A DNA stretch of 49,223 bases from a virus. Every line of letters begins with the position of its first letter. Within the stretch, counting starts at the first letter, position 1. Shown one piece after another: positions 13,855 through 45,104 of this stretch. The notes beneath the pieces were generated by a model, which made no database searches, was not told where the DNA came from, and saw only the letters and a program-made list of their open reading frames with translations. The position numbers and the translations under genes were made by a program. The DNA lies in IMG/VR virus record IMGVR_UViG_3300027985_000505, positions 1 through 49,223 of that record, one strand, 5' to 3'.

Positions 13855-15546
13855 CTAACCTACAGCTGCTTCAGACTCAATGAGTTCCAATGCAATTGCT
13901 GAGTAAGGTTTTGTTAGGGCTCCAGAACAACGAGTTTCGATTAAATATTTTTGTGCGTTGTAATCGATATCAAAATCGTCAAACATGTTTACCGCCCCGC
14001 CCTTATCTGCGCCGACATTATAATCTTTTAGATTTAATATTAGCCCTTGTAGAGTTCTTTCTTTTCCGTCCGTATCAGTTCTCGTCTGCTCTTCCATTAC
14101 TGGAACAGTGACAATATCTACAACGCGGAGTGCCGCCTTCAACTTGTCAATTGTGTCATAAATTACTCGACCCTGTTTATCTTCCATTAATAGACAGTCT
14201 GTTAGCACATCTTCTGTTGTGAACAGAGTTGGTTGACCAGAACCCTTGTATTCTTTTCGTGATTTAACCGCAGCTCTGATAAATGCCTTGGCTTTTTCAT
14301 CAGTAGTAGCTGTAGGTGATACAACAACAGGTGTTTTAATAGTGTATAGATCATCGTCTTTCCAAACCGGTCTAATGTTCAATTCACTTATTTTATCGTT
14401 ACTTGAGCCAGGTCTACCATCAGAAATTAGAATAGCGCGTGCTAATTCTTCGTCAAGCATGTCTCGCATTTCTAATTTAACAAACCCAACTGCATCAAAA
14501 TCAGTAATATCAACAACGTCGTCTCTGTCTAATTTTTGTTTCTTGTAAATTGTCGTTGGAGTAGTTGTTCGTTTAAGTAAGGTGAATACTTCTTCAAGCT
14601 TCATGTTGCTTTTAATGTATCCTTTTGCTCTTGCATCGTCTGCTGTTATGTCGGCATGTATTGATTTGATTCTTGAAAATGGTGTTCTATGTACAGAGGT
14701 CATAACTTTTCCAACCCAACCATTGTCTCTTCGGATAAAAGTTGGTGTTGCGTCAACATTTTGTGCATCTGGAAATAGGTATCCAATTTCCTCGATACCG
14801 TGAGCTATTGCACTCTCTTTTAAAGAACCATAACGTTTAATGTCAGTAAACACGGCTTGTGTGTCCGCGTGTGATAATGAATCGTTTCCGTTGTCGTTTT
14901 CAAATGCGTTGTGTTTCATATTTTCATCTCCTTCATTGTCGTCATCGTTAGATAACGCTTGTCCAATAAGTGCATAGACTACTGTTTTTTGTTCTTCATT
15001 AAGTGTATCAAACACGTCTTGAACAGTTTTTTCAGAGTCTGGTTTTGCGTTTGGGTCGCCGTTTTTCATTTTTGAGCCCTCCTCATTTTCTGAATGTTGT
15101 AATGATAATAATTCTCCTGTAAAAATATAAGCTGAACCATCTTCGTCGTCGCCGTGTAAAATTACGTCTTCGATAAATGCGCCTGGATTAGCCCCAGCTA
15201 AAACCAAACTCACTTCTTTAATTGAACCGTGAACAACATTTGTAAGATTATGTTTAAGATGGTTGGCATATATAGATAAAGATGTTATATCCCCATGTTG
15301 AACCGCGGTCTTAATTGCGCGCGCAGATTCGGAATCATTAAAGTACCCATAAGTATAAATACCCTCTGGTCTATTCTCCAATTTAGCATGTCCTAGAACG
15401 TTAAATGGTTCTGCATGCCCGTGATTCCACACCAAGGGCACTGTTGTGCCATCATTGTGTTTAAATGCATCTGGCATGATTACTCGGCCATCAGAGCACT
15501 TAACGTTGTTTCGAGTGGCCCAGCCACAAAAATCGTATTTCTCCAT
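13855..15546 (-). CDS. Fused prohead protease - scaffold - major capsid protein (HK97 type)
   Basis: The 563-residue protein has an N-terminal HK97-type serine protease domain (1-about 150), with candidate catalytic His in VPLVWNHG (His42) and Ser in DITSLSIYA (Ser89/91). An acidic helical linker (about 155-215) resembles the scaffold delta domain. A major capsid protein domain (about 215-563) follows, with KRYGSLKESAIAHGI and RDDVVDITDFDAVGFVKLEM segments. Fusions of protease and capsid protein are known in HK97-like phages. Here two internal ATG codons, each with a good ribosome binding site, sit exactly at the domain borders (15069 and 14919), so separate products may also be made. The protease should cleave the linker during maturation. 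Confidence 0.85.
   Translation of the reverse strand: MEKYDFCGWATRNNVKCSDGRVIMPDAFKHNDGTTVPLVWNHGHAEPFNVLGHAKLENRPEGIYTYGYFNDSESARAIKTAVQHGDITSLSIYANHLKHNLTNVVHGSIKEVSLVLAGANPGAFIEDVILHGDDEDGSAYIFTGELLSLQHSENEEGSKMKNGDPNAKPDSEKTVQDVFDTLNEEQKTVVYALIGQALSNDDDNEGDENMKHNAFENDNGNDSLSHADTQAVFTDIKRYGSLKESAIAHGIEEIGYLFPDAQNVDATPTFIRRDNGWVGKVMTSVHRTPFSRIKSIHADITADDARAKGYIKSNMKLEEVFTLLKRTTTPTTIYKKQKLDRDDVVDITDFDAVGFVKLEMRDMLDEELARAILISDGRPGSSNDKISELNIRPVWKDDDLYTIKTPVVVSPTATTDEKAKAFIRAAVKSRKEYKGSGQPTLFTTEDVLTDCLLMEDKQGRVIYDTIDKLKAALRVVDIVTVPVMEEQTRTDTDGKERTLQGLILNLKDYNVGADKGGAVNMFDDFDIDYNAQKYLIETRCSGALTKPYSAIALELIESEAAVG
14917..14933 (-). promoter_or_regulatory. Internal ribosome binding site and ATG at the capsid domain border
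   Basis: Within the protease-capsid fusion, AAGGAG (14928-14933 on the complement) lies 8 bases before an in-frame ATG (14919). Translation from here would give a 354-residue capsid protein without protease or scaffold. It looks like the retained start of a once separate gene. Confidence 0.55.
15067..15082 (-). promoter_or_regulatory. Internal ribosome binding site and ATG at the scaffold border
   Basis: Inside the same fusion, GGAGG (15078-15082 on the complement) lies 8 bases before an in-frame ATG (15069) that would start a scaffold-plus-capsid product (MKNGDPNAK...). This site and the one at 14919 both fall at inferred domain borders. Confidence 0.5.
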
Positions 15547-15561
15547 TTTGAAAATTCCCCC

Positions 15562-17376
15562 TTACTTTCTTTTTCTTGTTTTTAAGAAAGACGAATTACT
15601 TTTGATTTTATCTAGCTCATTGACATATTTTTCATCATACTCATTTTTTAAAGAAGTTTTAGTAGTTTTAAAAACGGTTTTTAATTTTTCTCGAAGCATC
15701 TTATTTGACTCTCTAAGACCTAATATTTCAGATTTAATAGCGTCTTTGTTTTTTTCTTTATCACCTGACTCCATGTTTTTAAGTTTTTCTCTTAGTAAGT
15801 CAATTTTAGATTGCATCCGCTCTTTTTCGCTATTTATTTGAGCGTTAGTCGTTTCTCGTTTATTGTCTACTTTATTTTTTCTTTCGCCCGTGAGTCGATC
15901 TTTTACATAACTTGCGGCTTCTTTTCCAGCATCATTTAATCTAGCTGTCGAAGTACGTCCCCGTAGTTGTTTAGTGCGCTCATAATATTCGTGGGCTTTT
16001 ACTGGGTCATAATATTGACTACTATAATGGGTTAGTTCGTCATCTAAAAAAATAGATTCAAGATCGTTAATTTGAGCATCCATATCATCAATATCATCAA
16101 TACTTTGAATATATTGCGACTCGGTTATCCCATTGTCGGAACCACTAGCGTCAACATCGTCGTTACCTACGGTCGGTTTTTCTTCATTAGCATCAGAACT
16201 AATATTTTTGTTTTTCAATTCGTCAGCTTTTGGGTCGGACGACGGTTTTCTTCCAGTAATCTCTCTAATTTCATTGGACGACATTATTTCGTTTCGTGTA
16301 AACTTATCCGCAATTTCAGCAAGTTCGGATAACGGAACTAATCTGAATGGGTCTTTAAAAAACATTATTGAGTGCCGTTGAATTCGAGCAGCTTTAGTTA
16401 GAAAAGATCTTTTCATTTCGTCGACAATAGCTGATATTATAGGTTCTATAGTGCGACTATAATAGTTGAGCATGGTCTTTTCATCGGCAGTACCATCTAA
16501 CACACTAGCTGAAATACCTAACTGGCTATATAGCATGCTCGTTAAATATTCTATTTGTGTCATCAGATTATTGTTTACGGGTCGATTGAGTTGTGTTATA
16601 CGCTCGGTACCGTCGGTATATGCGACACCATATTTAGTATTTGATAGTTGTGTTTCAACATCAAGTCGTCTTTTTTCAGCTTGCGCCCGTCTTGCCTCTG
16701 ATTTTATAGCAAATGGTAATTGTATTATTAAGTCTAATTTACCAGAACCACTCTGCTCATCGACAGCATCTAAAAGATTTAATTTTCTTATAAGACGTTG
16801 CATGGTTGAATTTGGTTCGTTAATTACTGAATATAAAGGGTTTTCGATTATAGCAGTGGTACTTTTTGGTACAACTATATCTTCTTTAATCCCCTTCCGT
16901 TCGTTGTAAGCTTTCACTTTAACCATGTTTGGGTACCATTCTAATATCTTACCAGTCCGCATTGATTCAACATCAAATCCCAATGGTGTGTTGTCGTTGA
17001 CATCCGTGTCAATCGGAACGACCGCCACGCACCCTTCGTCCAACATTGACATCACTACGTCTTGTATAAACGCTCGACCGGTTTGGTCTACATTTGCTTC
17101 CAAAGTCAAACACGTGTTTAGACCAGAATTAACATACGATAAAAACCTGTCATTTTCGTCCAATATAACATGCTGAATGGTTATACTCGCTACGTCCAAA
17201 GCTATTCGGTTATATACTGACGTGACTATCGACCGTTCGTTCCCACGAGTCAAACGAGGTCTGTCTGGTCTGTATGAATAACCATAACCAGAATCCATAT
17301 AATCATGCGTTGGGTCTTTGTTAAGAAATACGTTCCAAGCTGTTTTTAGCCTAGCGCCAAAAGGTAAGTCACTCAT
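15562..17376 (-). CDS. Portal protein with C-terminal scaffold-like extension
   Basis: This protein of about 604 residues has a portal body in roughly the first 390 residues (SIVTSVYNRIALDVASI, EWYPNMVKVKAY, QLGISASVLDGTADEKTMLNYY split across two strands, ending near EIREITGRKP). Its C-terminal 210 residues are acidic then coiled-coil, with a YYDPVKAHEYYERTKQLRGR motif around residues 455-475. That motif is usually found in separate minor head or scaffold proteins of Clostridia phages, so it may act as an internal scaffold. The ATG at 17376 is preferred over one overlapping the terminase stop at 17397, because GAAGGAG lies upstream of it. Confidence 0.85.
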   Translation of the reverse strand: MSDLPFGARLKTAWNVFLNKDPTHDYMDSGYGYSYRPDRPRLTRGNERSIVTSVYNRIALDVASITIQHVILDENDRFLSYVNSGLNTCLTLEANVDQTGRAFIQDVVMSMLDEGCVAVVPIDTDVNDNTPLGFDVESMRTGKILEWYPNMVKVKAYNERKGIKEDIVVPKSTTAIIENPLYSVINEPNSTMQRLIRKLNLLDAVDEQSGSGKLDLIIQLPFAIKSEARRAQAEKRRLDVETQLSNTKYGVAYTDGTERITQLNRPVNNNLMTQIEYLTSMLYSQLGISASVLDGTADEKTMLNYYSRTIEPIISAIVDEMKRSFLTKAARIQRHSIMFFKDPFRLVPLSELAEIADKFTRNEIMSSNEIREITGRKPSSDPKADELKNKNISSDANEEKPTVGNDDVDASGSDNGITESQYIQSIDDIDDMDAQINDLESIFLDDELTHYSSQYYDPVKAHEYYERTKQLRGRTSTARLNDAGKEAASYVKDRLTGERKNKVDNKRETTNAQINSEKERMQSKIDLLREKLKNMESGDKEKNKDAIKSEILGLRESNKMLREKLKTVFKTTKTSLKNEYDEKYVNELDKIKSNSSFLKTRKRK

Positions 17377-17396
17377 TTTGATTTTTTCTCCTTCCA

Positions 17397-19142
17397 TTAT
17401 TCAAACGCGTCTTTGTTTCTCTTGTATGCTATATATGCGTCCATCATAGATGCTACTGGGTCAATTTTTTGGTCATACCTAGTTTTTAAAAGCTTACGAT
17501 TACCGTTATTATCCTCTAATGTAATACAGTTGCCCATGGCGAAAGACATTATATCTTCGTCAAACAATAGCATTCTTTCTTCTGAATACTTCTTTAATTC
17601 ACCTAAAGGAACGGATTCGGTTTTAGATCCTTGTATTACTTTTTCAACTCCAAAAGGGCCATTATCAGTGGCCCATCTCGCAACGAATTCTTTTGCATTA
17701 TATGGGTCATACCCGAAACACCTAATGTCGTAATCGCACTTAATTATATGAGCGTCAAGGTCGTCATACACATCATCCATATCCAAAACAGTACACTCTA
17801 GAACCACCAAACTGCCTTCTTCCATAAACTTATCATATTTAGTTCTCATAGCTAATGGTAATTTCGCCAAGGTTAATGATGAAATATAGTTTCTGGTTTT
17901 TACCCCAAAACAACCATCCGAGAGCGGAAATAAAAAAACAAACGCACAGAAATCATCCCCTTGAGAAAGGTCTGCTCCCATTGCGCATGGCATCTGCCAA
18001 TATTCTCGTTTTCGATGAGGTTGTATTTCATCATATGTAAAGTAATAAGTATACCCTTCCATAGGAAGTCCAAATCTTTTAGCCAATATATCGTTTCTGG
18101 CGGCTGGAGTTTTTTCAGCTCTTTCAACGTCAAGTTGATATGTTTCATAACTTACCGTCTTACCAATATTTGGGTTTGCCTTGAGCCACATTTCAGGGTT
18201 TGAAACCTCGTCAACAGAATCTAGCTTATACCACCATATAGACACATGTGGGTTAACATATTCACCTTTAAGAATATTCATTAACTCCATTTTGATTGTG
18301 TCACCACTACCATTTCGAACAGTACCCTCAGAGCTTGTAGCTACAATTAGATAATCATTGATTTTAGATGCGCCTTGTTCTATAGCTCCAATAACGTCTT
18401 CTCGAACGTCACCAGAAAGCCATTCATCGACCGTGGCAATTTTACATCTAAGCCCCTGTAGTTTATCAATACTCATGGGGCGTATTTCAATAATGGAATT
18501 TGTCAGAAAATTTTCGATTCCTTTTTTTGTGGACGTTAATTTTACTCGTTTAGCTTTTGATCCCGTTGTATTTTGAATTGAACCGGCTGTTAGAAATTTA
18601 AACAAGGGGCCTCTTGCTCTGGTTATGGCTGTTCTCAATGGTGATAATACTTCGTCCGCTAGTTTCATAGTTGGGGCGGTAGTAATTTGTTGTGTGGTCG
18701 ACGTATCTATGTTTTGAAAGTATGATTGAATGCTAGAATCATATAAAGATTTAGCTGCGCCTCTACCAACAATTAAATATTGTTTGTTGATTAATCGTTT
18801 TTTTATTCTTTTTTTTACATAGCGTCCACCATGCCCGTCTTCGTTTGGTTCATATACACTTCGTTCCACAAAATAATACCAACCAAGAGCCTGTTCCCCC
18901 CATAGTTTAAAACTATCTAACAACTCTAAATCAGAACCGTCAGTTAAGGTGAGTTCGTTTTCGCAATACCGCACCCATCCTTCCACTGCTTCGCTGTCAT
19001 AAAAAATACCAGGATTAGCAATTAACTCGTCAATCCGATTCATTTCCATAGACACTTCTTTATTTACTGGGATTAAACCGCTCGTTACGGCATCTCTGAA
19101 CATGCCGTAATATTTTGGAACGGCAGTGTTTGATAACGCCAT
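17397..19142 (-). CDS. terL: Terminase large subunit
   Basis: The 581-residue packaging motor has an ATPase domain with a deviant Walker A (VGRGAAKS, residues 125-132) and a Walker B ATVDEW (residues 236-241). The nuclease domain has its first aspartate in MGADLSQGDD (Asp391) and a second acidic site in the FGYDPYNAKE region. It cuts concatemers and pumps DNA through the portal. The gene directly precedes the portal gene, with overlapping stop and start (TAATG). The ATPase motif lacking the usual GKS/GKT is common in this terminase family. Confidence 0.93.
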   Translation of the reverse strand: MALSNTAVPKYYGMFRDAVTSGLIPVNKEVSMEMNRIDELIANPGIFYDSEAVEGWVRYCENELTLTDGSDLELLDSFKLWGEQALGWYYFVERSVYEPNEDGHGGRYVKKRIKKRLINKQYLIVGRGAAKSLYDSSIQSYFQNIDTSTTQQITTAPTMKLADEVLSPLRTAITRARGPLFKFLTAGSIQNTTGSKAKRVKLTSTKKGIENFLTNSIIEIRPMSIDKLQGLRCKIATVDEWLSGDVREDVIGAIEQGASKINDYLIVATSSEGTVRNGSGDTIKMELMNILKGEYVNPHVSIWWYKLDSVDEVSNPEMWLKANPNIGKTVSYETYQLDVERAEKTPAARNDILAKRFGLPMEGYTYYFTYDEIQPHRKREYWQMPCAMGADLSQGDDFCAFVFLFPLSDGCFGVKTRNYISSLTLAKLPLAMRTKYDKFMEEGSLVVLECTVLDMDDVYDDLDAHIIKCDYDIRCFGYDPYNAKEFVARWATDNGPFGVEKVIQGSKTESVPLGELKKYSEERMLLFDEDIMSFAMGNCITLEDNNGNRKLLKTRYDQKIDPVASMMDAYIAYKRNKDAFE

Positions 19143-19168: not shown

Positions 19169-19573
19169 TTACCCCTTCTTTAATTGTTTTATAGCTAGTG
19201 CTATTGCTACTGACGATGCTCCTATAGCCGTTACACTACCCCCGATTTCCAAAGCGTTTCGAACATTTTGGCGACCTTTAGAGATTGGTGGCTCGGTTAA
19301 TCGAGCATAGTTTTGTTCTAGATTCAGACGGGCGACTTTAGCTTTTAATTCGTCATCACTCATGTGTTTAAAGTCCGTTCTTGTTTTTGACGAGCTTTTA
19401 TATAAGGCCTCGTCTAGATCTTTTAAAGACTTAATTAGCTTACCAGTGTCGTCTAACGCCGACTTTGTCTTGTTCAGGTTTATTCTTTTTCCAGATGCTG
19501 AATTGGTAGATGGGGATCTTCTCTTACCCCACTTCATACCTATAATGCCATAATGGTATAGCTGATTATTCAT
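19169..19573 (-). CDS. Minor head protein with YHYGIIGMKWGKRR motif
   Basis: This 134-residue protein has an N-terminal YHYGIIGMKWGKRR motif, a hallmark of minor structural proteins in Clostridia phages. A helical middle (DDTGKLIKSLKDLDEALYKS, SDDELKAKVARLNLEQNYAR) and a C-terminal transmembrane helix (about residues 108-130) follow. The function is unknown; the motif probably serves as a capsid-targeting or assembly signal (inference). It lies between the head-tail connector and terminase genes. A related HYGVPKRSGRYPWG motif opens the RNA polymerase-like protein at 21680-24433. Confidence 0.7.
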   Translation of the reverse strand: MNNQLYHYGIIGMKWGKRRSPSTNSASGKRINLNKTKSALDDTGKLIKSLKDLDEALYKSSSKTRTDFKHMSDDELKAKVARLNLEQNYARLTEPPISKGRQNVRNALEIGGSVTAIGASSVAIALAIKQLKKG

Positions 19574-21184: not shown

Positions 21185-21282
21185 TAGTAGACTTATATCG
21201 CCGGTACAAAGTCGATTATATTTGAAAGGAGAAATATAAAACGTGAAAAAGGGTTCATAATACCGGCGATATAAGTCTACTA
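21185..21282. repeat. Perfect 22-bp inverted repeat with 54-bp loop, upstream of terS
   Basis: Bases 21185-21206 are the exact reverse complement of 21261-21282 (core GACTTATATCGCCGG). The loop holds, on the plus strand, a good AAAGGAG site and a five-codon frame starting GTG at 21243 and ending TAA at 21258-21260 (peptide MKKGS). The arms are GC-richer than the surroundings. It may be a terminase-binding or cos-flanking element, or the footprint of a small mobile element. Confidence 0.9.
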
Positions 21283-21299
21283 AAGTTAAAAGTTTCTAC

Positions 21300-21385
21300 A
21301 AAAAGCACCCCCGGGGAATTTTTAAGGAGGGTCGCGAAGAAGTAGGGGGTGTATAATTTAGCACCCCCTCCCCCTTATTAAAGAA
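21300..21385. other. Candidate cos (packaging) region
   Basis: In an AT-rich gap beside terS, this stretch is strikingly GC-rich. GCACCCCCGGGG (21305-21316) is followed by AGGGGGTG ... CACCCCCT, which can form a hairpin (about 21342-21368). The AGCACCCCC string occurs twice. GC-rich cohesive-end sites beside terS and an HNH gene are normal for cos phages. The exact cut site cannot be read from sequence alone. Confidence 0.5.
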
Positions 21386-21433: not shown

Positions 21434-21673
21434 TTATTGATTAGAAATTTTCTTATATATATTTCTAAAATCATATTTTATTATCTCATCAATTGCTCTT
21501 TCTATTTCTAAATTGTTTTCTTCTTCTGATAATTGTTCCGAGGTTCTAGCAATTCTTCCTAGATAAGAGCATGAATTATAACCTTTTTCTGTATCGAACA
21601 TAAACCAAGAAGTGAATTCGGTAAATGGATTATACGGATTATCAATGGTGGTTATCATAAAAGTGTGGTCCAT
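21434..21673 (-). CDS. Conserved small protein beside the RNA polymerase-like gene
   Basis: This 79-residue protein is rich in aromatic residues (TTIDNPYNPFTEFTSWFMFD) with an acidic helical C-terminus (EIERAIDEIIKYDFRNIYKK). It begins 6 bp after the RNA polymerase-like gene, with an AAAGGAGTG site, so it is probably co-translated and may be a partner. From memory, the same small protein accompanies the same large gene in related phages. The function is unknown. Confidence 0.65.
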   Translation of the reverse strand: MDHTFMITTIDNPYNPFTEFTSWFMFDTEKGYNSCSYLGRIARTSEQLSEEENNLEIERAIDEIIKYDFRNIYKKISNQ

Positions 21674-21679: not shown

Positions 21680-24433
21680 TCACTCCTTTCCATTAATGTA
21701 TTTAGATACGGTGGCCGACGAAACGCCTAGAGCGGTAGCTATTTCTTTTGTGCTGTAATTAGAAGAGCTCATGTGTTTTATCTTGTTAATTTTAGCATCA
21801 CTTAAAGTTGTAGACGAACGAGGTGTCGCTCTTTGTCGTAAACTATCAATGTCAGCATGATTAATAATTGTACTAAGTTGGTTTTCGCTTATTGCTCCTG
21901 ATTGAATAGCTTCCCATTCTTTATCTGTGATGTTTATTAATTGTCTTTGCGCCCCTACAGTAGTTCTAGCGGTGGTTAGCGCTTGTTGTTTTATTTTCTT
22001 TAATTCGCTTTTGGTCAGATCCGGATTACTTTGCTGTTTAGCAGTTACTATGCCGTTTGCCATTATTTGTGCTTGTCGTTCCCTAGGCGCGTTCTTAAGA
22101 GACACATTAAGCTTTGATAATAAAGAGGATACTTCATCAGCATAAATTGTTTTAGCAGATGCGTCGTACTTCATGTTACCAGTGCTTATCATCTCTTTTC
22201 GCGCCTGGTTAGCAAGTGATTTCATCTTATTAGCATAATTAGCATATACTTCTTCCTGGGGGGTACCTGATGATAACAGGTGGGCGTCTTTTACTTCTGC
22301 CATCTTAGTGCTAGCTTGCATACGAGCAGTCATTGTTCCTGTTTTTTTATTAAAATATTCCTCGTGTACTTCCTTATAACTAACTTCACCAGTCTCTTTA
22401 TCAATTATAGGGCTACCTTTTCTTTTTAACACAGAGGTTTCAGATTTAGCCCTAGAAATTAATGTGGCCGCCCCTTCATGATATTTACCGTCATTGTCGA
22501 TAGTTCCTTGATATTTCTTTTTTAATGATGCTATATTATTATCAGACGCACTTTGTTTATAATCTAGATTATGTTTAGCGGCATCAATAACCACCATACT
22601 ATGTCTAACGGCTCTTGCTAATTCGTCTTGGGTTGCTCCTTTTAAAGTCATATCGGTAATTAAATTAGAAATTTTACCCATCTCAGTTTGAGTGTTTTTC
22701 ATTACTTTAAAAGACCCCTCTTTTTTACCACCATATTCAAACTTCGGGTCAAAACCTTCAAGACCTTTTAATGGAGGGGTTGATGATATTTTAATTTTGT
22801 TTCCGGTTGGAATAACCATAACAGTGTCCCCATCAAAGTCTGCCCCGGAAAGCCTTTCTGCAACTTTACCGTTTATACCCACTGCGTCAGTCGACGTATT
22901 TCCTAATACTTTTCTCGAGTCGGTATGTTTGTTATTTACTGTTAATATGGGGATTTCAAAAGTACCACCATGAGGGTAACGAATAAGAGCTACTTTTTCG
23001 CCATTTTCATAATTAGGAGCATATACTTCATTATCTTTTAATGACGGAATAGGTATTATTACTTGATATTTTTGTCTAGGTAATGCTGCTGCTTGTAAAT
23101 GGACGGCTGCCGCATCACAATCATCAGAAAAAGATTTTAATAACGCTTTTTTTACAGTCGGATTTGTTAATGAGCATATTTCATCAAACTCCGCTTGTTT
23201 ATCAGCTTCAGATAAACCAAGTTGTTTTTTTATAAGAGTTATATTTTGTTTTGAAAGAAATTGAGATGGTAATTTATCGCTCCAATCATTCCAATCTCCT
23301 TCTTCAGCTCTCTTATTAATTAGGGAAAGTTGTTTTTTACCGTTTTTATCATAATAATAACTTTGACCACCAGTTGTTTTTATAGGGTCGTTCGGGTCTA
23401 CTACGCCTTCTTTAATTAGTGAACCAAAAGGATTATCAGGATCATCACTTATTTTTTTTAAAACGTCTCGTTTTTCAACATTCTTTTTTTTATTAGTATT
23501 AAAAACAATATCTACACCATCTGGTAAATTATCCGAATACACAGCCATCCCTTTTATATATCGGTCATTATCAACTAATATACGAACTTGAGCATAACGT
23601 GATTTACCTAACGAAAGATCGTCGACGCCTCTTCGAATTTCTACTAATCCGTCTTTTTCAACTCCGCCGTCTTCGGCATAACGAATTTGTAAGCGTTTTG
23701 AATCCATACTTTTTGGGTATACAAATTTTGGGTCGAAGGTTTCTCCTCCATCATGAGACACATAATCTCTAACCGATTGTATGTTCGGGTTATTGAATAT
23801 TTCTTTATGTTCTGTTCCAGGAGGACAAAGAACCTGAATGTTTGTCTGTTTACCAGGATTAGTTACTTGCGGAACTCCTCCACCGTAAACCTCATATCCG
23901 TCCAAATATAACATATATAAAGCTTGCTTCATTTTTTCTTTGGATACACCTAGTTCTTTTTCGACTCCCACACCAACATCAATCATGCCTTTTTCGTCAA
24001 CTTGTTTTTTTAGAAATTCAGCTGTCGTTTTAGCTTGGTTCATACGAGCTTCCGAATTATCGTTTAACAAAGACCGAACCGAGGAATCATTATCATAACC
24101 CATTTTAGTAGCAATATCTTGTAGACTATATCCTTTTTCACGAAGTCCTTTAGCAGTAGCAACTTCTAAAGAACGACGTTCATCTTTAGCCAAACTTAGT
24201 TGCGTTCTCAACTGAGTGGTAGACAAACCCATTGTTTTAGCAATTGCAGTGTCGCCTCGCCAAACTTTACCATCATCGTCTTTATATGTGGCGCCTTGTT
24301 TTCTAAGTTCTTCGACTCTACTTAAGAAGTCCCCGCTATGTTGGTATGGACTATCGCCAGACCCCCAAGGATAACGACCAGAACGTTTTGGTACACCATA
24401 ATGTAATAAGTAATCTTTTTCGAAAGGACACAT
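21680..24433 (-). CDS. DFDGD-type (two-barrel) RNA polymerase-like protein
   Basis: The 917-residue protein has GADFDGDTVMVIP at about 530-542, the metal-binding signature of two-barrel RNA polymerases (cellular beta-prime, YonO of SPbeta, crAss-like phage RNAP). It is preceded by ALIRYPHGGTFEIPIL (482-497), comparable to the beta-prime segment before NADFDGD. Helix-turn-helix-like segments lie at about 60-82, 100-125 and 890-915 (STKEIATALGVSSATVSKYI). The N-terminus (HYGVPKRSGRYPWGSG) resembles the motif of the minor head protein, hinting at packaging in the virion. A role in transcribing phage genes is inferred. The gene lies between nuclease genes and the cos/terminase region, in a transcription unit headed by a repeated phage promoter-like element. 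Confidence 0.7.
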   Translation of the reverse strand: MCPFEKDYLLHYGVPKRSGRYPWGSGDSPYQHSGDFLSRVEELRKQGATYKDDDGKVWRGDTAIAKTMGLSTTQLRTQLSLAKDERRSLEVATAKGLREKGYSLQDIATKMGYDNDSSVRSLLNDNSEARMNQAKTTAEFLKKQVDEKGMIDVGVGVEKELGVSKEKMKQALYMLYLDGYEVYGGGVPQVTNPGKQTNIQVLCPPGTEHKEIFNNPNIQSVRDYVSHDGGETFDPKFVYPKSMDSKRLQIRYAEDGGVEKDGLVEIRRGVDDLSLGKSRYAQVRILVDNDRYIKGMAVYSDNLPDGVDIVFNTNKKKNVEKRDVLKKISDDPDNPFGSLIKEGVVDPNDPIKTTGGQSYYYDKNGKKQLSLINKRAEEGDWNDWSDKLPSQFLSKQNITLIKKQLGLSEADKQAEFDEICSLTNPTVKKALLKSFSDDCDAAAVHLQAAALPRQKYQVIIPIPSLKDNEVYAPNYENGEKVALIRYPHGGTFEIPILTVNNKHTDSRKVLGNTSTDAVGINGKVAERLSGADFDGDTVMVIPTGNKIKISSTPPLKGLEGFDPKFEYGGKKEGSFKVMKNTQTEMGKISNLITDMTLKGATQDELARAVRHSMVVIDAAKHNLDYKQSASDNNIASLKKKYQGTIDNDGKYHEGAATLISRAKSETSVLKRKGSPIIDKETGEVSYKEVHEEYFNKKTGTMTARMQASTKMAEVKDAHLLSSGTPQEEVYANYANKMKSLANQARKEMISTGNMKYDASAKTIYADEVSSLLSKLNVSLKNAPRERQAQIMANGIVTAKQQSNPDLTKSELKKIKQQALTTARTTVGAQRQLINITDKEWEAIQSGAISENQLSTIINHADIDSLRQRATPRSSTTLSDAKINKIKHMSSSNYSTKEIATALGVSSATVSKYINGKE

Positions 24434-24435: not shown

Positions 24436-24996
24436 TTATAATGCCTCCTCTAATTTTATTTTTGTTATAATTTTATCAAAGGTTATAATTTTATCCATAA
24501 CTGGAACTATGTCTTCGGTAGTAGGATTACAAACTATAATCCCATCGTTTTGATATATTCTTAATTCTATTTCAATATCAGATGGTTTAATTTTATATTC
24601 TAAACAAAACAACGCTGTATAAATAATTAGTTGTTTTATATTTGCCGGAGTAACCCCGGACTTATAATCGTGGATCCGAAGCACTCCGTTCCTGAAAGAA
24701 ATAGCGTCAGCGGTCCCAAAACAATTTTCTGAATAATATAAAACTTGTTCTGGTGTCATCTTAAACCCAATAGCATCGTTAATATACATATTTAAGGTTT
24801 TTTGTGATTTTGGAAGTTTTTGTCTTAATTTAATACAGCGAGCTGCAAAATCATGAAGTTCAGTGCCTTTTTGAACTGCCAATAATTTTGAAAAGACATC
24901 GGCGACTTTTTGTTCATCATAATTTATCCAATGATATTTACTTGCGCCGAGAAACGCGTGTTGTCCTTCGAGGTTGAAATGTTTGTTGAAGTTCAT
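24436..24996 (-). CDS. PD-(D/E)XK nuclease (RecB/Cas4-like exonuclease)
   Basis: This protein of about 186 residues carries the RecB-type motif set: an early helix with His (KGTELHDFAARC), then FGTADAISFRNGVLRIHDYK with the catalytic Asp and the D-x-K pair, followed by KQLIIYTALF (the Q-x-x-x-Y helix). It probably acts on phage DNA ends in replication or recombination. The ATG at 24996 has AGGAG at good spacing and makes a 59-bp overlap with the VRR-NUC gene; a longer version from 25050 is less likely. It ends 2 bp before the RNA polymerase-like gene. Confidence 0.8.
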   Translation of the reverse strand: MNFNKHFNLEGQHAFLGASKYHWINYDEQKVADVFSKLLAVQKGTELHDFAARCIKLRQKLPKSQKTLNMYINDAIGFKMTPEQVLYYSENCFGTADAISFRNGVLRIHDYKSGVTPANIKQLIIYTALFCLEYKIKPSDIEIELRIYQNDGIIVCNPTTEDIVPVMDKIITFDKIITKIKLEEAL

Positions 24997-25267
24997 ATAA
25001 TATCTCCTCTTCATTTTCGGGACATATAAATCTTGAAAATGACATCTCATTCATACGCCCTACATAGAATTCTTGATTTGGTTGTTTATTAGCCACTTTT
25101 GTTTTTTTACATTCTAAAGAAGCCCAATTTTTATTATGAAGAATTAGTAAATCCGGAATACCTTGTATCTGGTCCATTTTAAATACCATACAATCGGGGA
25201 ACATTATTTTTAAACGTTTAACAAGCCTGTCTTGAAACCCGCTTTCTAACCTAGAACTTCTAGCCAT
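24938..25267 (-). CDS. VRR-NUC domain nuclease
   Basis: This protein of about 109 residues starts MARSSRLESGFQDRLVKRLK and carries QGIPDLLILHNKNWASLECK with the PD...E-x-K catalytic pattern of VRR-NUC nucleases. Stand-alone versions in phages act as structure-specific endonucleases in replication/recombination modules. The ATG at 25267 has AAGGAG 8 bases upstream; the 34 residues in frame before it are encoded by leader and terminator sequence and are not a real extension. It is the first gene after a promoter-like element and an attenuator hairpin. Confidence 0.8.
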   Translation of the reverse strand: MARSSRLESGFQDRLVKRLKIMFPDCMVFKMDQIQGIPDLLILHNKNWASLECKKTKVANKQPNQEFYVGRMNEMSFSRFICPENEEEILYELQQTFQPRRTTRVSRRK

Positions 25268-25295
25268 ATTTGAGCTCCTTTCTTTTTTAATAAAA

Positions 25296-25340
25296 ATAAA
25301 AAAGAGAAAGTAATATAGTGCATATTTTAACTTTCTCTTC
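25296..25340 (-). terminator. Promoter-proximal hairpin (attenuator or short RNA) ahead of the VRR-NUC gene
   Basis: An 8-bp stem GAGAAAGT / ACTTTCTC (25304-25311 and 25330-25337) with an additional AATAT/ATATT inner stem is followed on the minus strand by TTTTTTATTTTT. The 5' arm begins 3 bases after the -10-like TTTTATG of the upstream element, so a transcript starting there would be a terminated RNA of about 40 nt unless read through. Confidence 0.65.
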
Positions 25341-25364
25341 ATAAAAGGGCATGTTTTTTTCGCG
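25341..25364 (-). promoter_or_regulatory. Repeated phage promoter-like element, copy 1 (TTTTAT variant)
   Basis: Minus-strand CGCG (25361-25364), exactly 14 bp, TTTTAT (25346-25341), then G. It has the same geometry as nine other copies and heads the nuclease/RNA polymerase-like operon. Confidence 0.6.
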
Positions 25365-25365
25365 T

Positions 25366-25398
25366 GCAAAAAAACAGAGACACACTTCAGTATCTCTG
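25366..25398 (-). terminator. Terminator after the PASTA protein gene
   Basis: The minus strand reads CAGAGA - 12-base loop - TCTCTG followed by TTTTTTTG (stem arms 25375-25380 and 25393-25398). It separates the upstream gene from the promoter-like element that begins two bases further on. Confidence 0.75.
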
Positions 25399-25414: not shown

Positions 25415-25927
25415 TTAGACTTTGTTTTTGGTTACTGTTTTTTTCAATATACCCGAAATGAATTTTTTATTATTTTTTAATTCGTATTTTGTTAGTTTAT
25501 TTTCTTCATATTCTGTAAATAAGCGAATACTTTCGTCAATAACATCACGAGTCACATATTTTAAATGCACTCTTGTTCCAGGTTCAACTTTTTTATTTTG
25601 GCTCGGGTGAGAAGAAACCACTTGATTATCAAAACAATCTTTATATTTAATATTAGCATCTTTAACAAGAACTGGTGAGGGGTCTGGTCTTAAACCGACT
25701 TCTTCAATATTTGTAATAGCTTGTTCTAGAGTTTTCGGATAATCCTTTAAATATGTTTCTGGTACTTTAACTAGTAGTCTTTGTTTTTCATTATGTGATT
25801 CTATTTTTTCACCTATTGGTTCCGCAAAGACTGCGACAGAGGCAGTGACAGCGGTCACTAATTGTAATAATGTATTTGCGCCTTCTATACCCTTACCTAT
25901 ATTTTTTATGACATTCTTTTTTGCCAA
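25415..25927 (-). CDS. PASTA-domain protein
   Basis: The 170-residue protein has a short membrane-proximal N-terminal part (LLQLVTAVTASVAVFAEPIG, a possible TM helix at about 17-36). A PASTA-like domain (about 55-130) follows, with LEQAITNIEEVGLRPDPSPV and VVSSHPSQNKKVEPGTRVHL, and then a lysine-rich C-terminus. PASTA domains bind peptidoglycan fragments in serine/threonine kinases and penicillin-binding proteins. The start is a TTG at 25927, chosen because GGAGG lies 8 bases upstream and no ATG is near. A 117-bp stretch of this gene is repeated exactly inside the ssDNA-binding-like gene at 30938-31528; it completes the PASTA fold here, so this gene is the likely source. Confidence 0.65.
   Translation of the reverse strand: MAKKNVIKNIGKGIEGANTLLQLVTAVTASVAVFAEPIGEKIESHNEKQRLLVKVPETYLKDYPKTLEQAITNIEEVGLRPDPSPVLVKDANIKYKDCFDNQVVSSHPSQNKKVEPGTRVHLKYVTRDVIDESIRLFTEYEENKLTKYELKNNKKFISGILKKTVTKNKV
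25547..25663 (-). repeat. 117-bp exact repeat, copy A (within the PASTA gene)
   Basis: All 117 bases are identical to 31133-31249 in the same orientation and reading frame, encoding 39 residues (starting KDANIKYKDCFDN and ending RVHLKYVTR). Flanking sequences differ from the first base outside. Here the segment is an integral part of a PASTA domain. Confidence 0.97.
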
Positions 25928-26317: not shown

Positions 26318-26737
26318 TTAATCTTTAGGCGACTCAATGGTAATATCCATCAGTTTAGTGTCCTCATTAAACATTATTTGCACGCGATATTTATCGTTAT
26401 TATAAGCGGAATACAGATATGAAGTCTTGTGATAATCAACACTAAACCCTTTTTTAAAGCAGTTATCAACGTACGTATCAAACTGTTGTTGTGAATATTC
26501 GCCAACGTCAATCATAATAAATTCGGAAGTTTCTAGAGTTACCTCCCCTTTATTCGATTCGGGAACGGGTAACATAGCGCCCAAAGTACTAGTCGGCCAA
26601 GTAAACTCCTCATAAACGACAGCCTCCGTTGTTGAAACGCTATTGGTGTTCGTACCCACCTTTTTATCACTACACGCAGTATACAACAACATTACACTTA
26701 ACAACATAATTATTACTAATATATTTTTTTTCAACAT
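26318..26737 (-). CDS. Lipoprotein, DUF6591-like (probable lysogenic conversion gene)
   Basis: The 139-residue protein has a type II signal peptide: positively charged MLKKN, a hydrophobic stretch, and lipobox LYTAC with the lipidated cysteine at about 22. The mature part (EFTWPTSTLGAMLPVPESNK, then a DVGEYSQQQFDTYVDNCFKK segment) resembles DUF6591 lipoproteins encoded by Bacillota chromosomes. It would be anchored on the outer face of the membrane. It has its own perfect consensus promoter and is followed by hairpins, so it is an independent unit probably expressed in the lysogen. The role (surface change, superinfection exclusion or other host benefit) is unknown. Confidence 0.75.
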   Translation of the reverse strand: MLKKNILVIIMLLSVMLLYTACSDKKVGTNTNSVSTTEAVVYEEFTWPTSTLGAMLPVPESNKGEVTLETSEFIMIDVGEYSQQQFDTYVDNCFKKGFSVDYHKTSYLYSAYNNDKYRVQIMFNEDTKLMDITIESPKD

Positions 26738-29580: not shown

Positions 29581-29617
29581 AATAATCCTCCTATAAAATA
29601 ATTGTTTTAGTTATTCC

Positions 29618-29641
29618 ATAATAGAAGATGTTTTTTTCGCG
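29618..29641 (-). promoter_or_regulatory. Repeated phage promoter-like element, copy 2
   Basis: Minus-strand CGCG (29641-29638), 14 bp (AAAAAAACATCTTC), TATTAT (29623-29618), GG. It sits just after the helicase gene stop and 38 bp before the next ATG. Confidence 0.65.
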
Positions 29642-29643
29642 TG

Positions 29644-30873
29644 TTAGTCTCGCCATTCGACATATTTACTTTCGTTAAAATTCTTTTTATTTTTTAATGC
29701 TCTACTAATAGCTAAATCAATCCCGCTACGAGATTTTAAATGATAGTAATATAAATCCGAGTAAGGCGTGTTAAGTCTATCAGTTCTACCAGCGGCTTGA
29801 GTCATGACTTTATATGAATAATTCTGGGAGTAAAAAATTATGGTGTCTGTTCGAATGCAATTCCATCCCTCACAACCAGCGTTATATTGAACCAAATATA
29901 CCCAACGTGTACTGTCTGGTATTGGCTGGTGTTTAAACCCGTTCCATTCAGCGATTTTTACATCATTACCATAATTAAGCTTTTTTAATAGGTCTAACTC
30001 ATAATTAAAGTTATAAAATATAATAACTCTCGGATGTGCTTCGAATATTTCCAAAACGGCAACTTGTCTGCTTTCATCAGTATTCACAATTTTCCGCCAC
30101 ACCAAACAAAGTCCAGATGCATTTATTATGGGTTCGTTTTTATAAGGATCCCAACGAGTTCTAGAAACGTCCTTATATTTTTCAATATCGTATTTAACAC
30201 TTATTTCTTCATGATGCGATACGGTATTCCTTTGAAACTCCATATTAACAAGGATCAAATTACGAAACCTAATTAACCGTCCAGTGCCAACATACCTATC
30301 AATTTTTGGAAATTTACTAAACCTACTATAAATTATGTGTTCATTTGTAAATTCGGTTTTGTTTTTATAAAACCCGTTAGCAATAAACACCGGAATATAA
30401 TCTTGCCACGTGTCACCTGGCGTAGCTGATAATAATATCCAATCGTTTAATTTGGTTATTTTTAAAAAAGATTTTACCCATGCCCCACTACCTATAACCC
30501 TTTGCTCATCAAATATAAAAAACGCGTTAACAACGTCTGAATATTTTTCAATATTATTCCAACTATCCACCACTACTTTGTTACTATATAAATTTACCTC
30601 TGGGTTAGTTGAAAGAAGAAAAGGAGCCAGTTCACCATCCCACTCAAAAGTATCTCTTTTTCTAGCAGTCGTAATAATATATAAATCTTTAGGAGGATCG
30701 TCCATTACGCAGTGCTCACCACCAAGCAAACTATCTTGATTACCTCCGTTCTGAAGATAATAATAGGATAAAGATGTTAGACTTTTTCCCGAGCCGACTC
30801 CACCACAAAGAATACACCCGGTTTTCATTTGATTAACCGCTTTTATTTGATAATCAAATAATTTTATAGCCAT
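29644..30873 (-). CDS. SF2 (DEAD/SNF2-like) helicase
   Basis: The 409-residue protein has motif Ia region and Walker A GGVGSGKSLTSL (about 23-34), a DEQR motif II (about 124-127), LSATPGDTW motif III and QAAGRTDRLN motif VI near residue 357, the complete signature of a superfamily 2 helicase/translocase. The length is short for SNF2 proteins, as is usual for phage versions. It is probably a replication or recombination helicase. It lies 64 bp after the ssDNA-binding-like gene in the replication module. Confidence 0.88.
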   Translation of the reverse strand: MAIKLFDYQIKAVNQMKTGCILCGGVGSGKSLTSLSYYYLQNGGNQDSLLGGEHCVMDDPPKDLYIITTARKRDTFEWDGELAPFLLSTNPEVNLYSNKVVVDSWNNIEKYSDVVNAFFIFDEQRVIGSGAWVKSFLKITKLNDWILLSATPGDTWQDYIPVFIANGFYKNKTEFTNEHIIYSRFSKFPKIDRYVGTGRLIRFRNLILVNMEFQRNTVSHHEEISVKYDIEKYKDVSRTRWDPYKNEPIINASGLCLVWRKIVNTDESRQVAVLEIFEAHPRVIIFYNFNYELDLLKKLNYGNDVKIAEWNGFKHQPIPDSTRWVYLVQYNAGCEGWNCIRTDTIIFYSQNYSYKVMTQAAGRTDRLNTPYSDLYYYHLKSRSGIDLAISRALKNKKNFNESKYVEWRD

Positions 30874-39642: not shown

Positions 39643-39688
39643 TTTAATTTCCCCTTTCAAATTTAGAAAATTTTTAATAATGTTCTCC

Positions 39689-39712
39689 ATAATAGAAGAT
39701 GTGAATTTCGCG
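39689..39712 (-). promoter_or_regulatory. Repeated phage promoter-like element, copy 3
   Basis: Minus-strand CGCG (39712-39709), 14 bp (AAATTCACATCTTC), TATTAT (39694-39689), GG. It lies 7 bp after the DUF6353-B stop and about 47 bp before the next ATG. Confidence 0.65.
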
Positions 39713-39718
39713 TATTAT

Positions 39719-41847: not shown

Positions 41848-41864
41848 TTATAATCACTCCTTCC

Positions 41865-41888
41865 ATAATAGACGTTGTGTATTTCGCG
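41865..41888 (-). promoter_or_regulatory. Repeated phage promoter-like element, copy 4
   Basis: Minus-strand CGCG (41888-41885), 14 bp (AAATACACAACGTC), TATTAT (41870-41865), then GGAAGGAG, which is the Shine-Dalgarno sequence of the next gene. A start site 7 bases downstream would remove most of this ribosome binding site; a start at the first G keeps it. Confidence 0.7.
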
Positions 41889-41894
41889 TGGTGT

Positions 41895-42724: not shown

Positions 42725-42791
42725 AAAAAAAAGAGTGTAGGAATCGAACCTACTTACGCTATTAGCGGTAGCCCAGCAAAACTACTCTTTC
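42725..42791 (-). ncRNA. tRNA-like small RNA with its own promoter-like element and terminator
   Basis: The minus strand forms a 7-bp acceptor-like stem AAAGAGT / ACTCTTT (42790-42784, 42736-42730), a perfect T-arm GTAGG-TTCGATT-CCTAC (42753-42737), and either GCTA-CCGCTAA-TAGC (anticodon-like loop reading GCT) or CGCT-AAT-AGCG. Only 30 bases separate acceptor and T-arm, so the D-arm is missing or vestigial, and no CCA is encoded. Eight T residues follow directly, giving a terminator. The acceptor starts one base after TATTATG of a promoter-like element. This is not a normal tRNA; it could be a mimic, decoy, processed remnant or regulatory RNA. Confidence 0.6.
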
Positions 42792-42815
42792 ATAATAGTA
42801 CTTGTAAATTTCGCG
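42792..42815 (-). promoter_or_regulatory. Repeated phage promoter-like element, copy 5 (drives the tRNA-like RNA)
   Basis: Minus-strand CGCG (42815-42812), 14 bp (AAATTTACAAGTAC), TATTAT (42797-42792), GAAAGAG. It is identical over 31 bases (CGCG through GAAAGAG) to copy 7 at 43219. Confidence 0.7.
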
Positions 42816-42818
42816 TAA

Positions 42819-43025: not shown

Positions 43026-43056
43026 AATTTAAACATCCTTTCAAATTTTTATTTCC

Positions 43057-43080
43057 ATAATAGAAGATGCAAATTTAGCG
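43057..43080 (-). promoter_or_regulatory. Repeated phage promoter-like element, copy 6 (CGCT variant)
   Basis: Minus-strand CGCT (43080-43077), 14 bp (AAATTTGCATCTTC), TATTAT (43062-43057), GG. It directly follows the T-tract of the structured RNA at 43082-43218. Confidence 0.6.
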
Positions 43081-43081
43081 T

Positions 43082-43218
43082 AAAAAAAAAAAAGAAAGAG
43101 AGGCGGCTCACATAATTAACCATTAAATGTACTAACGTCCCTCGATAGCTGTTCGCTAAACCTTCAAGTTATACATACCTTTCTCAGATTATACCGATCC
43201 GTCATATAATCCTCTTTC
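43082..43218 (-). ncRNA. Structured small RNA, about 125-135 nt
   Basis: There is no coding frame in this gap. From the G after TATTAT (43218) the minus strand begins GAAAGAGG and ends CCTCTCTTTC followed by twelve T, so the two ends can pair and close the RNA. Inside are GATTATA-11-TATAATC (perfect 7-bp stem), TAGC-GAACA-GCTA, and ACAT-TTAA-TGG-TTAA-TT-ATGT hairpins. The same promoter-like sequence drives the nearby tRNA-like RNA. No known RNA family is recognised. Confidence 0.6.
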
Positions 43219-43242
43219 ATAATAGTACTTGTAAATTTCGCG
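43219..43242 (-). promoter_or_regulatory. Repeated phage promoter-like element, copy 7 (drives the structured RNA)
   Basis: Minus-strand CGCG (43242-43239), 14 bp, TATTAT (43224-43219), GAAAGAG. It begins 2 bp after the stop of the upstream gene. Confidence 0.7.
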
Positions 43243-43243
43243 C

Positions 43244-43603
43244 TCAGATATCCCTCCTGTCAAAAACCGTCTCCCAACGCTCACGCTTAATTGGTTTCAT
43301 TTTTAAACCCCACATAATTTGTCTAATTGTAACTGTAGGATATAAACCATCCGTACACTTTTTAGCACGATTATCAAAATACTCCTTGAATCTCGGATGT
43401 AAATATAAATCGTCGGTTAACCACGGGTCTACTTCGCCCCACCATGTGCTTTTTGTATCCGGATTAAATCGCTGTTGTATAATTGCTAATCCTTTTTTAT
43501 CTATTTTAAATAAAGTACATTGACCGTAAACCGGATGTTCACACGTATACAGTTTTCCGTACATTGATAAATAAATATGTGGTTTTTTATAATGATGTCT
43601 CAT
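43244..43603 (-). CDS. Conserved phage protein (119 residues)
   Basis: It starts MRHHYKKPHIYLSMYGKLYT and carries CTLFKIDKKGLAIIQQRFNP, STWWGEVDPWLTDDLYLHP and a C-terminal IKRERWETVFDRRDI. From memory, proteins with this pattern are strongly conserved in Clostridia mobile elements and phages, but their function is not known. The ATG at 43603 has GGAG 6 bases upstream; an in-frame TTG at 43615 is less likely. Confidence 0.75.
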   Translation of the reverse strand: MRHHYKKPHIYLSMYGKLYTCEHPVYGQCTLFKIDKKGLAIIQQRFNPDTKSTWWGEVDPWLTDDLYLHPRFKEYFDNRAKKCTDGLYPTVTIRQIMWGLKMKPIKRERWETVFDRRDI

Positions 43604-43944: not shown

Positions 43945-44046
43945 AAAATATTACCTCCTATTAATTTGAAAGATATTACATAAATTATATAATACTTTCT
44001 TTATTAAGTAAAGAGATAAAAGAGCTCTTTAAAATCTCCTTTCTCT
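43945..44046 (-). other. Structured leader of the zinc-ribbon gene
   Basis: About 100 bases separate the promoter-like element from the ATG. They hold AAAGGAGAT...ATCTCTTT (sequestering an AGGAG) around an AAAGAGCTCTTT palindrome, and a second stem GAAAG-T-ATTA / TAAT-AT-CTTTC. This suggests RNA-level control, but no known riboswitch is recognised. Confidence 0.4.
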
Positions 44047-44070
44047 ATAATATACCTTGTAAATTTCACG
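44047..44070 (-). promoter_or_regulatory. Repeated phage promoter-like element, copy 8 (CGTG variant)
   Basis: Minus-strand CGTG (44070-44067), 14 bp (AAATTTACAAGGTA), TATTAT (44052-44047), AG. It is the only copy with A at the predicted start position. Confidence 0.55.
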
Positions 44071-44106
44071 TGAAAAACGAAGAGACCATGTAAATTACAC
44101 GATCTC
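44071..44106 (-). terminator. Terminator after the 44125-44508 gene
   Basis: An 11-bp stem with two or three G-T pairs (arms 44096-44106 and 44082-44092, loop ATT) is followed on the minus strand by TTCGTTTTT. A promoter-like element starts immediately after. Confidence 0.75.
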
Positions 44107-44508: not shown

Positions 44509-44545
44509 TTTTATTTCTCCTTTCAAAAATATTTATTGGCTTCCC

Positions 44546-44569
44546 ATAATAGAAGTTGTTATTTGTGCG
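44546..44569 (-). promoter_or_regulatory. Repeated phage promoter-like element, copy 9 (CGCA variant)
   Basis: Minus-strand CGCA (44569-44566), 14 bp (CAAATAACAACTTC), TATTAT (44551-44546), GG. It lies about 38 bp before the ATG of the coiled-coil protein gene. Confidence 0.6.
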
Positions 44570-44624
44570 TGGGATATTTTTTCCTTTATAAAAATAACAC
44601 ATTTTTCGGTAACCCACGTGCTGA

Positions 44625-44644: not shown

Positions 44645-44668
44645 AGAAAGAGCCCTTGTTAGGACTCT
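44641..44668 (-). terminator. Terminator of the TAACAAGG-loop family (copy 6)
   Basis: The minus strand reads GAGTCC-TAACAA-GGGCTC (44650-44667) followed by TTTCTTTTT. Its first arm starts four bases after the G that follows TATAAT of promoter-like copy 10, so a transcript from that element would be terminated after about 30 nt. Confidence 0.8.
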
Positions 44669-44671
44669 GTC

Positions 44672-44695
44672 ATTATAGGTTTTATTAATTTCGCG
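44672..44695 (-). promoter_or_regulatory. Repeated phage promoter-like element, copy 10 (TATAAT variant)
   Basis: Minus-strand CGCG (44695-44692), 14 bp (AAATTAATAAAACC), TATAAT (44677-44672), G. The CGCGAAAT part overlaps the last codons of the upstream gene. Confidence 0.55.
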
Positions 44696-45104
44696 TCTTG
44701 TTAAGTATCCAAAAGAAACGTCTGTATAATTTGTAATAAACATCTTTACAGCAAGGTATTTCTAATTTGGTTTTTAAGTGATTGTATGAAACCCCACAAG
44801 TTACTGCATTTAGAATATAACTATGTAAAATTGGGTCTGTTTCTATTGCAGCTTGTTCGACTAATTTCATCCTATCGGAATAAAATAGTAGTGCGTCTAC
44901 GCACTTATCGGTTGGGCTATTAATTAAATTGTTTTTTGACCTAGTTGTTAAGTCGACAGACCTTTTGCTCATACCATCAATTGAATTATAAGCCTTTTTC
45001 CAGATTGGGTACTGAAGACAAAAATGTCTTAATTCATAATAACGATGTTTCTCAATCCAGTATTCATTTTTCTCCGACAACTCTGATCTTATAGTAGTGG
45101 CCAT
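44685..45104 (-). CDS. Conserved early protein, possible DNA-binding regulator (139 residues)
   Basis: It starts MATTIRSELSEKNEYWIEKH (ATG 45104, AAAGGAG upstream inside the end of the preceding gene). The C-terminal part (AVTCGVSYNHLKTKLEIPCC, then CKDVYYKLYRRFFWILNKTR) has a helix-turn-helix-like spacing. In related phages it pairs with the upstream gene as the first two leftward genes (from memory). A regulatory role is suggested by position only. A longer version starting at 45185 is unlikely. Confidence 0.6.
   Translation of the reverse strand: MATTIRSELSEKNEYWIEKHRYYELRHFCLQYPIWKKAYNSIDGMSKRSVDLTTRSKNNLINSPTDKCVDALLFYSDRMKLVEQAAIETDPILHSYILNAVTCGVSYNHLKTKLEIPCCKDVYYKLYRRFFWILNKTRN

Follow-up and report, generated by a model that had tools for sequence, protein, structure and literature searches.

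The window, the whole stretch of 49,223 bases that was analysed, is a siphophage-type genome with a terminase, a portal, a protease-capsid fusion, a tape measure and a phrog_4210 DNA polymerase. A tyrosine integrase gene is located on the strand opposite to the head and polymerase genes, and its presence indicates that the phage, one of gut type, is temperate or descended from a temperate phage. The ORF under study (21680-24433, minus strand, 917 aa) matched the phrog_4291 profile over its full length (1310 bits, residues 5-916 against positions 8-908 of 909), and tblastn retrieved 251 matching GenBank phage records, almost all of them covering 80% or more of the protein. The carriers are mostly Arthrobacter, Gordonia, Streptomyces and Lactococcus phages, and the homologues go by various labels, among them hypothetical protein, putative RNA polymerase and HTH DNA-binding protein, 'HTH protein' and 'RNA-dependent RNA polymerase' being the usual names. 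The gene and its family, examples of which occur in FP_oengus, Lactococcus phage 1706 (orf75) and Mudcat (gp94), are already known and widespread and are not new; a literature search located no paper describing a virion role, promoter element or leader of the phrog_4291 family.

An alignment of 80 diverse homologues with 45-77% identity to the query, from which those with stop codons near their ends were omitted or in which they were trimmed, confirmed the conservation of both GADFDGD and RYPHGGTFEIP, and demonstrated that R485, P487, D532, D534, D536, K294 and K315 are invariant (80/80), a result far above chance; K294 and K315 are candidates for the catalytic lysines of the other barrel. The ORF, RYPHGGTFEIP (residues 485-495) and DFDGD (residues 532-536) all proved to lie where the first-pass annotation had placed them. 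RYPHGGTFEIP presumably corresponds to the NRAPTLH region of beta', and a conserved MGKISNLITDMT..HSMVVIDA stretch, helical in the predicted structure, is situated in the putative bridge-helix/trigger-loop-like region. Three helix-turn-helix segments had also been proposed: the C-terminal one is firm (HTH_38), while one or two N-terminal ones are likely, the Pfam and PHROG matches being sub-threshold and the region helical in the model. In the HotFries homologue (gp56) the annotated start lies 3' of the HYG leader and tblastn similarity starts ~100 nt earlier; judged by sequence, that start was probably mis-called.

The polymerase gene shares an operon with an endonuclease and an exonuclease gene (Table 1), the true start of the former probably lying inside its listed ORF, and the 79-aa ORF directly 3' of the polymerase has counterparts in 1706 (orf76), Mudcat (gp95) and HotFries (gp57). 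Many homologous contigs end 300-430 nt past the polymerase stop, at ACCCCC...CAT, in agreement with where the deposited genomes of 1706, Mudcat and HotFries end. The cos overhang predicted from these shared ends would make the polymerase and the 79-aa ORF the last genes at the right end, and joining of the ends would bring both alongside the HNH, TerL and portal genes, all in one direction. Just inside the predicted left end, at ~21185-21285, is a 20-nt perfect inverted repeat (GTAGACTTATATCGCCGGTA / TACCGGCGATATAAGTCTAC), possibly a terminase or recombinase site.

Elsewhere in the window, an exact 117-nt direct repeat (25547-25663 and 31133-31249) corresponds to a PASTA-like coding segment of gene 25415-25927 that recurs in frame inside the ssDNA-annealing/binding gene 30938-31528, and represents either a recombination or an assembly chimera. 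Three membrane-protein-like genes are paralogous (37561-38478, 39719-40489 and 41895-42710, the first matching phrog_2152), and genes 38502-39125 and 41149-41655 have a common C-terminal half.

Table 1. Features of the polymerase locus, the head module and the early region of the window.
Feature	Position	Strand	Basis or remark
Prohead protease/major capsid fusion	13855..15546	-	five conserved [LIM]-x-H linker sites: H131, H151, H212, H226, H249
Portal protein, C-terminal extension beginning DDELTHYSSQYYDPVKAHEYY	15562..17397	-	profile matches
Small head-module protein, adjoins TerL	19169..19573	-	HYGIIGMKWGKRR tag; Pfam DUF7211 1.4e-9
Predicted cos overhang CGCGACCCT	21328..21336	-	shared contig ends; ~340 nt past polymerase stop
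Small partner ORF, 79 aa, directly 3' of polymerase	21434..21673	-	phrog_4303
Predicted single-chain two-barrel (DFDGD) RNA polymerase	21680..24433	-	phrog_4291 match, conservation, predicted fold
C-terminal helix-turn-helix, residues 877-911	21701..21805	-	Pfam HTH_38 1.7e-7, above cut-off
Putative bridge-helix/trigger-loop-like helices 3' of DFDGD, residues 581-621	22571..22693	-	tentative assignment
Catalytic DFDGD, residues 532-536	22826..22840	-	invariant 80/80
RYPHGGTFEIP, residues 485-495	22949..22981	-	R485, P487, G490, F492, P495 invariant in 80
Region with invariant K294 and K315, proposed first barrel	23489..23701	-	conservation and model; barrel assignment putative
N-terminal helical/HTH-like region, residues 61-122	24068..24253	-	weak Pfam/PHROG HTH matches; helices in model
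Leader/tag DYLLHYGVPKRSGRYPWGSG, residues 7-26	24356..24415	-	conservation; pLDDT<50
Exonuclease, same operon	24436..25050	-	phrog_3953; order kept in Mudcat and HotFries
Endonuclease, first operon gene	24938..25369	-	phrog_93; order as in HotFries
Element heading endonuclease-exonuclease-polymerase operon	25336..25367	-	45.7 bits
Promoter-like element	29613..29644	-	35.8 bits
Promoter-like element	39684..39715	-	35.4 bits
Promoter-like element	41860..41891	-	32.8 bits
Promoter-like element, directly 3' of terminator-like hairpin	42787..42818	-	35.4 bits
Promoter-like element	43052..43083	-	29.6 bits
Promoter-like element	43214..43245	-	31.7 bits
Promoter-like element, directly 3' of terminator-like hairpin	44042..44073	-	21.7 bits
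Promoter-like element	44541..44572	-	30.8 bits
Promoter-like element, weakest of ten	44663..44702	-	below refined-matrix cut-off

Predicted fold of the polymerase

Searches of PDB sequences with phmmer and hmmsearch yielded no polymerase match, and fold comparison was therefore used. An AlphaFold2 model generated from the 80-sequence alignment had a mean pLDDT of 84.6, and all nine Foldseek matches in the PDB at E ≤ 1e-3 were single-chain two-barrel polymerases (Neurospora QDE-1, phage P74-26 gp62 and plant RDR2: 3.4e-7 for 2j7n, 5.4e-6 for 8f5m, plus RDR2 entries), cellular beta' subunits coming next in the list with weaker E-values. Global TM-scores were low (0.2-0.3), probably because the domains are posed differently, as in multi-domain proteins. 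The first-pass annotation had claimed a two-barrel polymerase and named structure prediction as the means of checking it; with two-barrel polymerases as the best PDB matches of the model the claim is supported, and a two-barrel single-chain polymerase fold can be regarded, on the strength of the model, as close to certain. The accompanying link to YonO and the crAss-like virion polymerase held in part: the two-barrel fold stands, but profile comparison with YonO (hhalign) gave a probability of 0.2 and hence no similarity, and the crAss-like polymerase was a weak fold match. Pfam RdRP was absent among the families matching the polymerase at E ≤ 0.1.

N-terminal leader and probable virion location

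Residues 11-26 of the polymerase read HYGVPKRSGRYPWGSG, of which H11, G13, S18, G19, R20, G24, S25 and G26 are invariant in the 80 homologues, and the HYG...SGRYPWGSG leader is near-universal among them. It is predicted to be disordered (pLDDT<50), as fits a signal rather than a domain. When 11,082 ORFs were searched with the SGRYPWGSG leader pattern there were 215 matches, 214 of them polymerases, and shuffled ORFs gave zero. The one other match (L045:14365-14751, from a related phage) is encoded between the TerL and portal genes and shows distant homology (E 2e-8) to the tagged window protein 19169-19573, which has the GMKWGKRR form; in L045 the polymerase-type leader replaces the HYGxxGMKWG tag, so the two forms are found at equivalent positions of related head-module proteins. 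The resemblance first drawn between the polymerase N-terminus and this small window protein is thus borne out, HYGIIGMKWGKRR being present together with a DUF7211 match at 1.4e-9. Pfam DUF7211 (PF23847) gave no match to the polymerase leader itself, two of eight relatives reaching E 0.013-0.026, below the cut-off, and in a literature search neither the HYG motif nor DUF7211 was found described.

In other polymerase-bearing phages the GMKWG form was located on head-module proteins, on a portal extension (L203) and on proteins that contain a papain-fold toxin domain (PF15644, Gln_amidase), a GNAT domain or DUF5662; in phage 1706 it is found on orf7, deposited as structural. A GMKWG-type tag lies downstream on the strand of the polymerase in 68 of the 73 loci having enough downstream sequence. 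As a separate observation, tagged head-module genes of related phages (L130, L136, L167, L126 and L230) are fused to the papain-fold toxin domain (PF15644), with an additional GNAT domain in L230 gp15; these fusions are candidate injected effectors acting on the host bacterium.

A possible connection with the prohead protease is provided by the [LIM]-x-H linker sites of the protease-capsid fusion, which are kept in 54-61 of 61 sequences and followed mostly by S, G, A or N. LxH occurs 400 times in such fusions against 151 expected from shuffles, the sequences being related and hence non-independent. The polymerase leader has its own L-x-H at residues 9-11 (24401-24409), with L or I two residues ahead of H11 in 79/80 homologues and D or E four ahead in 62/80; unlike the small residue usual at the capsid-fusion sites, the residue after H11 is Y. 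By analogy with the three-residue AXE cleavage motif of the SPN3US prohead protease (PMC10052503), and with the capsid-targeting leader of the T4 internal proteins and its cleavage by gp21 (PMC9958956), L-x-H may be the prohead-protease motif of this phage group.

The homologue in phage 1706, orf75 (1029 aa, with SLQHYGTKRHSGRYPWGSG near its start), was named 'structural protein' by the depositors of EU081845. Eleven orfs of the 1706 record are named structural, making 15 with the portal, the capsid and two tail proteins. A 2008 paper on phage 1706 reportedly found 15 structural proteins by LC-MS/MS, a count which makes it probable that the 'structural' label is experimental. Two small early-region ORFs, orf62 and orf71, share that label, and the 1706 structural set therefore possibly includes contaminants; mass spectrometry is not mentioned in the FP_oengus paper. 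The earlier suggestion that the polymerase is carried in the capsid gains support via these homologues, namely the deposited status of 1706 orf75 and the L045 head-module protein bearing the polymerase leader, and a virion location in the window phage is likely by sequence comparison.

A promoter-like element in the early region

A sigma-70 scan of the whole window scored modestly above shuffles and exposed a repeated element. Intergenic comparison established ten copies of 32-40 nt with the consensus CGC[GA]AAAWWWACAnnnnCTWTTATGRARA, all on the minus strand and all between 25 and 45 kb, in the early half of the genome; they score 30-46 bits against a shuffle maximum of ~15, and a refined matrix, which gave the scores in Table 1, keeps nine of the ten. 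This promoter-like element, with its pattern of strand, position and co-occurrence, is what is new here. On sequence criteria its use as a promoter is likely, and each copy is treated as a candidate. For the promoter recognition earlier suggested for the HTH segments, the element is likewise a candidate target. TTATG is kept in the element but the -10 consensus is not, position 23 being T in 55% of copies, and from base frequencies and spacing a host sigma-A promoter was judged an unlikely identity for the element. TATG at -3 to +1 serves the non-virion polymerase of phiKZ (PMC7618050); the parallel is short and possibly due to chance.

Sigma-A-type promoters (12/12 and 11/12) precede the lipoprotein gene and the integrase. 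The lipoprotein-like gene (26318-26737), behind the 12/12 promoter at 26800-26772, is possibly expressed in the lysogen. Near-identical terminator-like hairpins (AGAGTCCTAACAAGGGCTCT plus a T-run) lie between early genes at 44668, 43642, 42846 and 29387 (minus), and some directly precede promoter-like elements. They were considered as N4-like hairpin promoters and rejected, those checked being located just 3' of stop codons and ending in T-runs.

Across 3.37 Mb of loci, which partly overlap so that sites are not independent, the polymerase-sense strand had 443 element matches and the opposite strand one. Of 145 distinct relatives, 127 had a copy ahead of the polymerase, at a median distance of 910 nt, compared with 0/167 antisense and 0/187 coding controls; the other 18, about half of them distant, had no above-cut-off element within 1.3 kb upstream. 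Of 200 genomes from the bacterial family to which the R. torques record belongs, six had the exact pattern and none a reversed control: five of five polymerase-bearing genomes had it, as against 1/195 without the polymerase (hypergeometric P 2.4e-9, the prophages not being independent). The exception, genome G059, has an exact copy on contig 38 (L345, ~1686, minus) with a serine-recombinase-like gene and no polymerase, and nine window proteins compared with the 6 kb around it gave no match; chance, a satellite, or a defence gene reading the phage polymerase are possible explanations.

Selection in the reverse sense gave a similar association, the polymerase being present in 20 of 30 viral records that had been chosen solely for the element; of the remaining ten, seven had the DNA polymerase of this group, two a TerL 71-81% identical, and one (G023) was remote. 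The matrix found nothing in phage 1706, where a version of its own, TTTACAnnnnCTATAGTAGA, was identified de novo; its 11 copies keep the same layout and lie on a single strand between 24 and 43 kb, in the early half, with none in the late half. Element variants are also present in Arthrobacter and Streptomyces phages, those of Mudcat and HotFries lying upstream of the polymerase operon. The element and the polymerase belong to one phage lineage, another gene of which could recognise the element.

Interpretation and comparison with known systems

The explanation that best fits the sequence comparisons and the model, to which we assign a probability of about 0.72, is that of a head-packaged single-chain RNA polymerase that would start early transcription from phage-specific elements. 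We infer that the ORF would encode an enzymatically active DNA-dependent RNA polymerase that consists of a single chain, with two double-psi barrels and additional HTH domains. Produced in the course of infection by the window phage, it would be guided into the prohead by its flexible N-terminal leader, where the prohead protease may clip it at L-x-H, and it would be packaged along with the DNA and then injected. In the new cell it would transcribe the early half of the genome, its own operon included, from CGC[GA]AAAWWWACAnnnnCTWTTATG, with no need of a host sigma factor. Counting against this explanation, prophages need a host-driven route to the first polymerase on induction.

That same need, together with the position of the gene in an element-headed operon with recombination nucleases, would suit a polymerase on the model of YonO or P23-45 gp64, expressed early by host RNA polymerase and thereafter transcribing the element-bearing genes, with some other role for the leader. 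We consider this improbable in view of the deposition of 1706 orf75 as a structural protein, of a leader both near-universal and common to a head-module protein, and of the window itself, in which no second polymerase was seen.

A poorer prospect is use of the element by host RNA polymerase plus a phage activator, the DFDGD protein making some other RNA (primer or regulatory). TATTAT in many copies does resemble a -10 box, and the element follows both the lineage and the polymerase gene; against this, the key -10 A is not kept at position 23, a -35 box is missing at 17 nt, phages of Firmicutes and of Actinobacteria alike conserve the element, and the integrase and lipoprotein genes have ordinary sigma-A-type promoters instead. 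An RNA-dependent RNA polymerase, as named by PHROG and RefSeq and as the solved-fold relatives QDE-1 and plant RDR2 might suggest, is very improbable in a DNA phage without RNA-silencing partners, given that HTH domains and a conserved DNA element point to DNA templates and that QDE-1 itself is described as using DNA too (PMC2950127).

A broader proposal can be made, tentatively and at somewhat less than even odds: that a Firmicutes/Actinobacteria siphophage group, temperate and lytic, has a shared head-loading system injecting both a dedicated early RNA polymerase and effectors such as papain-fold deamidase-like proteins, with LxHYG...SGRYPWGSG and LxHHGxxGMKWG leaders or tags tied to an L-x-H prohead protease, and that the polymerase, once injected, recognises a promoter class of its own, so that early infection does not depend on the RNA polymerase of the host. 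The familiar examples of virion RNA polymerases come from lytic phages (N4, phiKZ, crAss-like and P23-45). The present reading, if true, would add a compact stand-alone virion RNA polymerase in ordinary siphophages, including prophages of gut Lachnospiraceae, and in hundreds of genomes that list it as a DNA-binding or RNA-templated enzyme. The element offers a concrete candidate promoter and a means of mapping early genes, and might serve as an orthogonal tool for transcription in Firmicutes and Actinobacteria. The leader with its L-x-H pattern hints that cargo loaded into the heads of these phages carries a general signal.

YonO of the temperate phage SPbeta is, like the polymerase described here, a single-chain enzyme (~100 kDa; PMC5467207). 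It differs in that profile similarity to the window polymerase was not detected. We know of no virion role for YonO. The crAss-like phi14:2 gp66 (NC_021806) is a virion-carried polymerase of 2180 residues encoded beside other very large virion proteins, whereas the 917-aa enzyme of the window, with its HTH domains, belongs to a siphophage. The T4 internal proteins and SPN3US provide precedents for the short N-terminal leader on head cargo proposed here, from which the window leader differs in its L-x-H motif, in having its conserved part after the motif, and in a cleavage that is putative.

Closer parallels are found in the Thermus siphophages, where P23-45 gp96 and gp64 and P74-26 gp62, the last being the second-best fold match, are likewise two-barrel single-chain polymerases. 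P23-45 gp96 was found in virions (PMC10770324); it forms part of the tape measure protein, whereas the window polymerase stands alone with a short leader, and P23-45 deploys gp96 as virion and gp64 as non-virion polymerase where the window has the one enzyme seen. Closest of all are the phrog_4291 members, full-length homologues with the same leader and motifs from which nothing basic differs, those of 1706 and Mudcat also lying beside the genome end.
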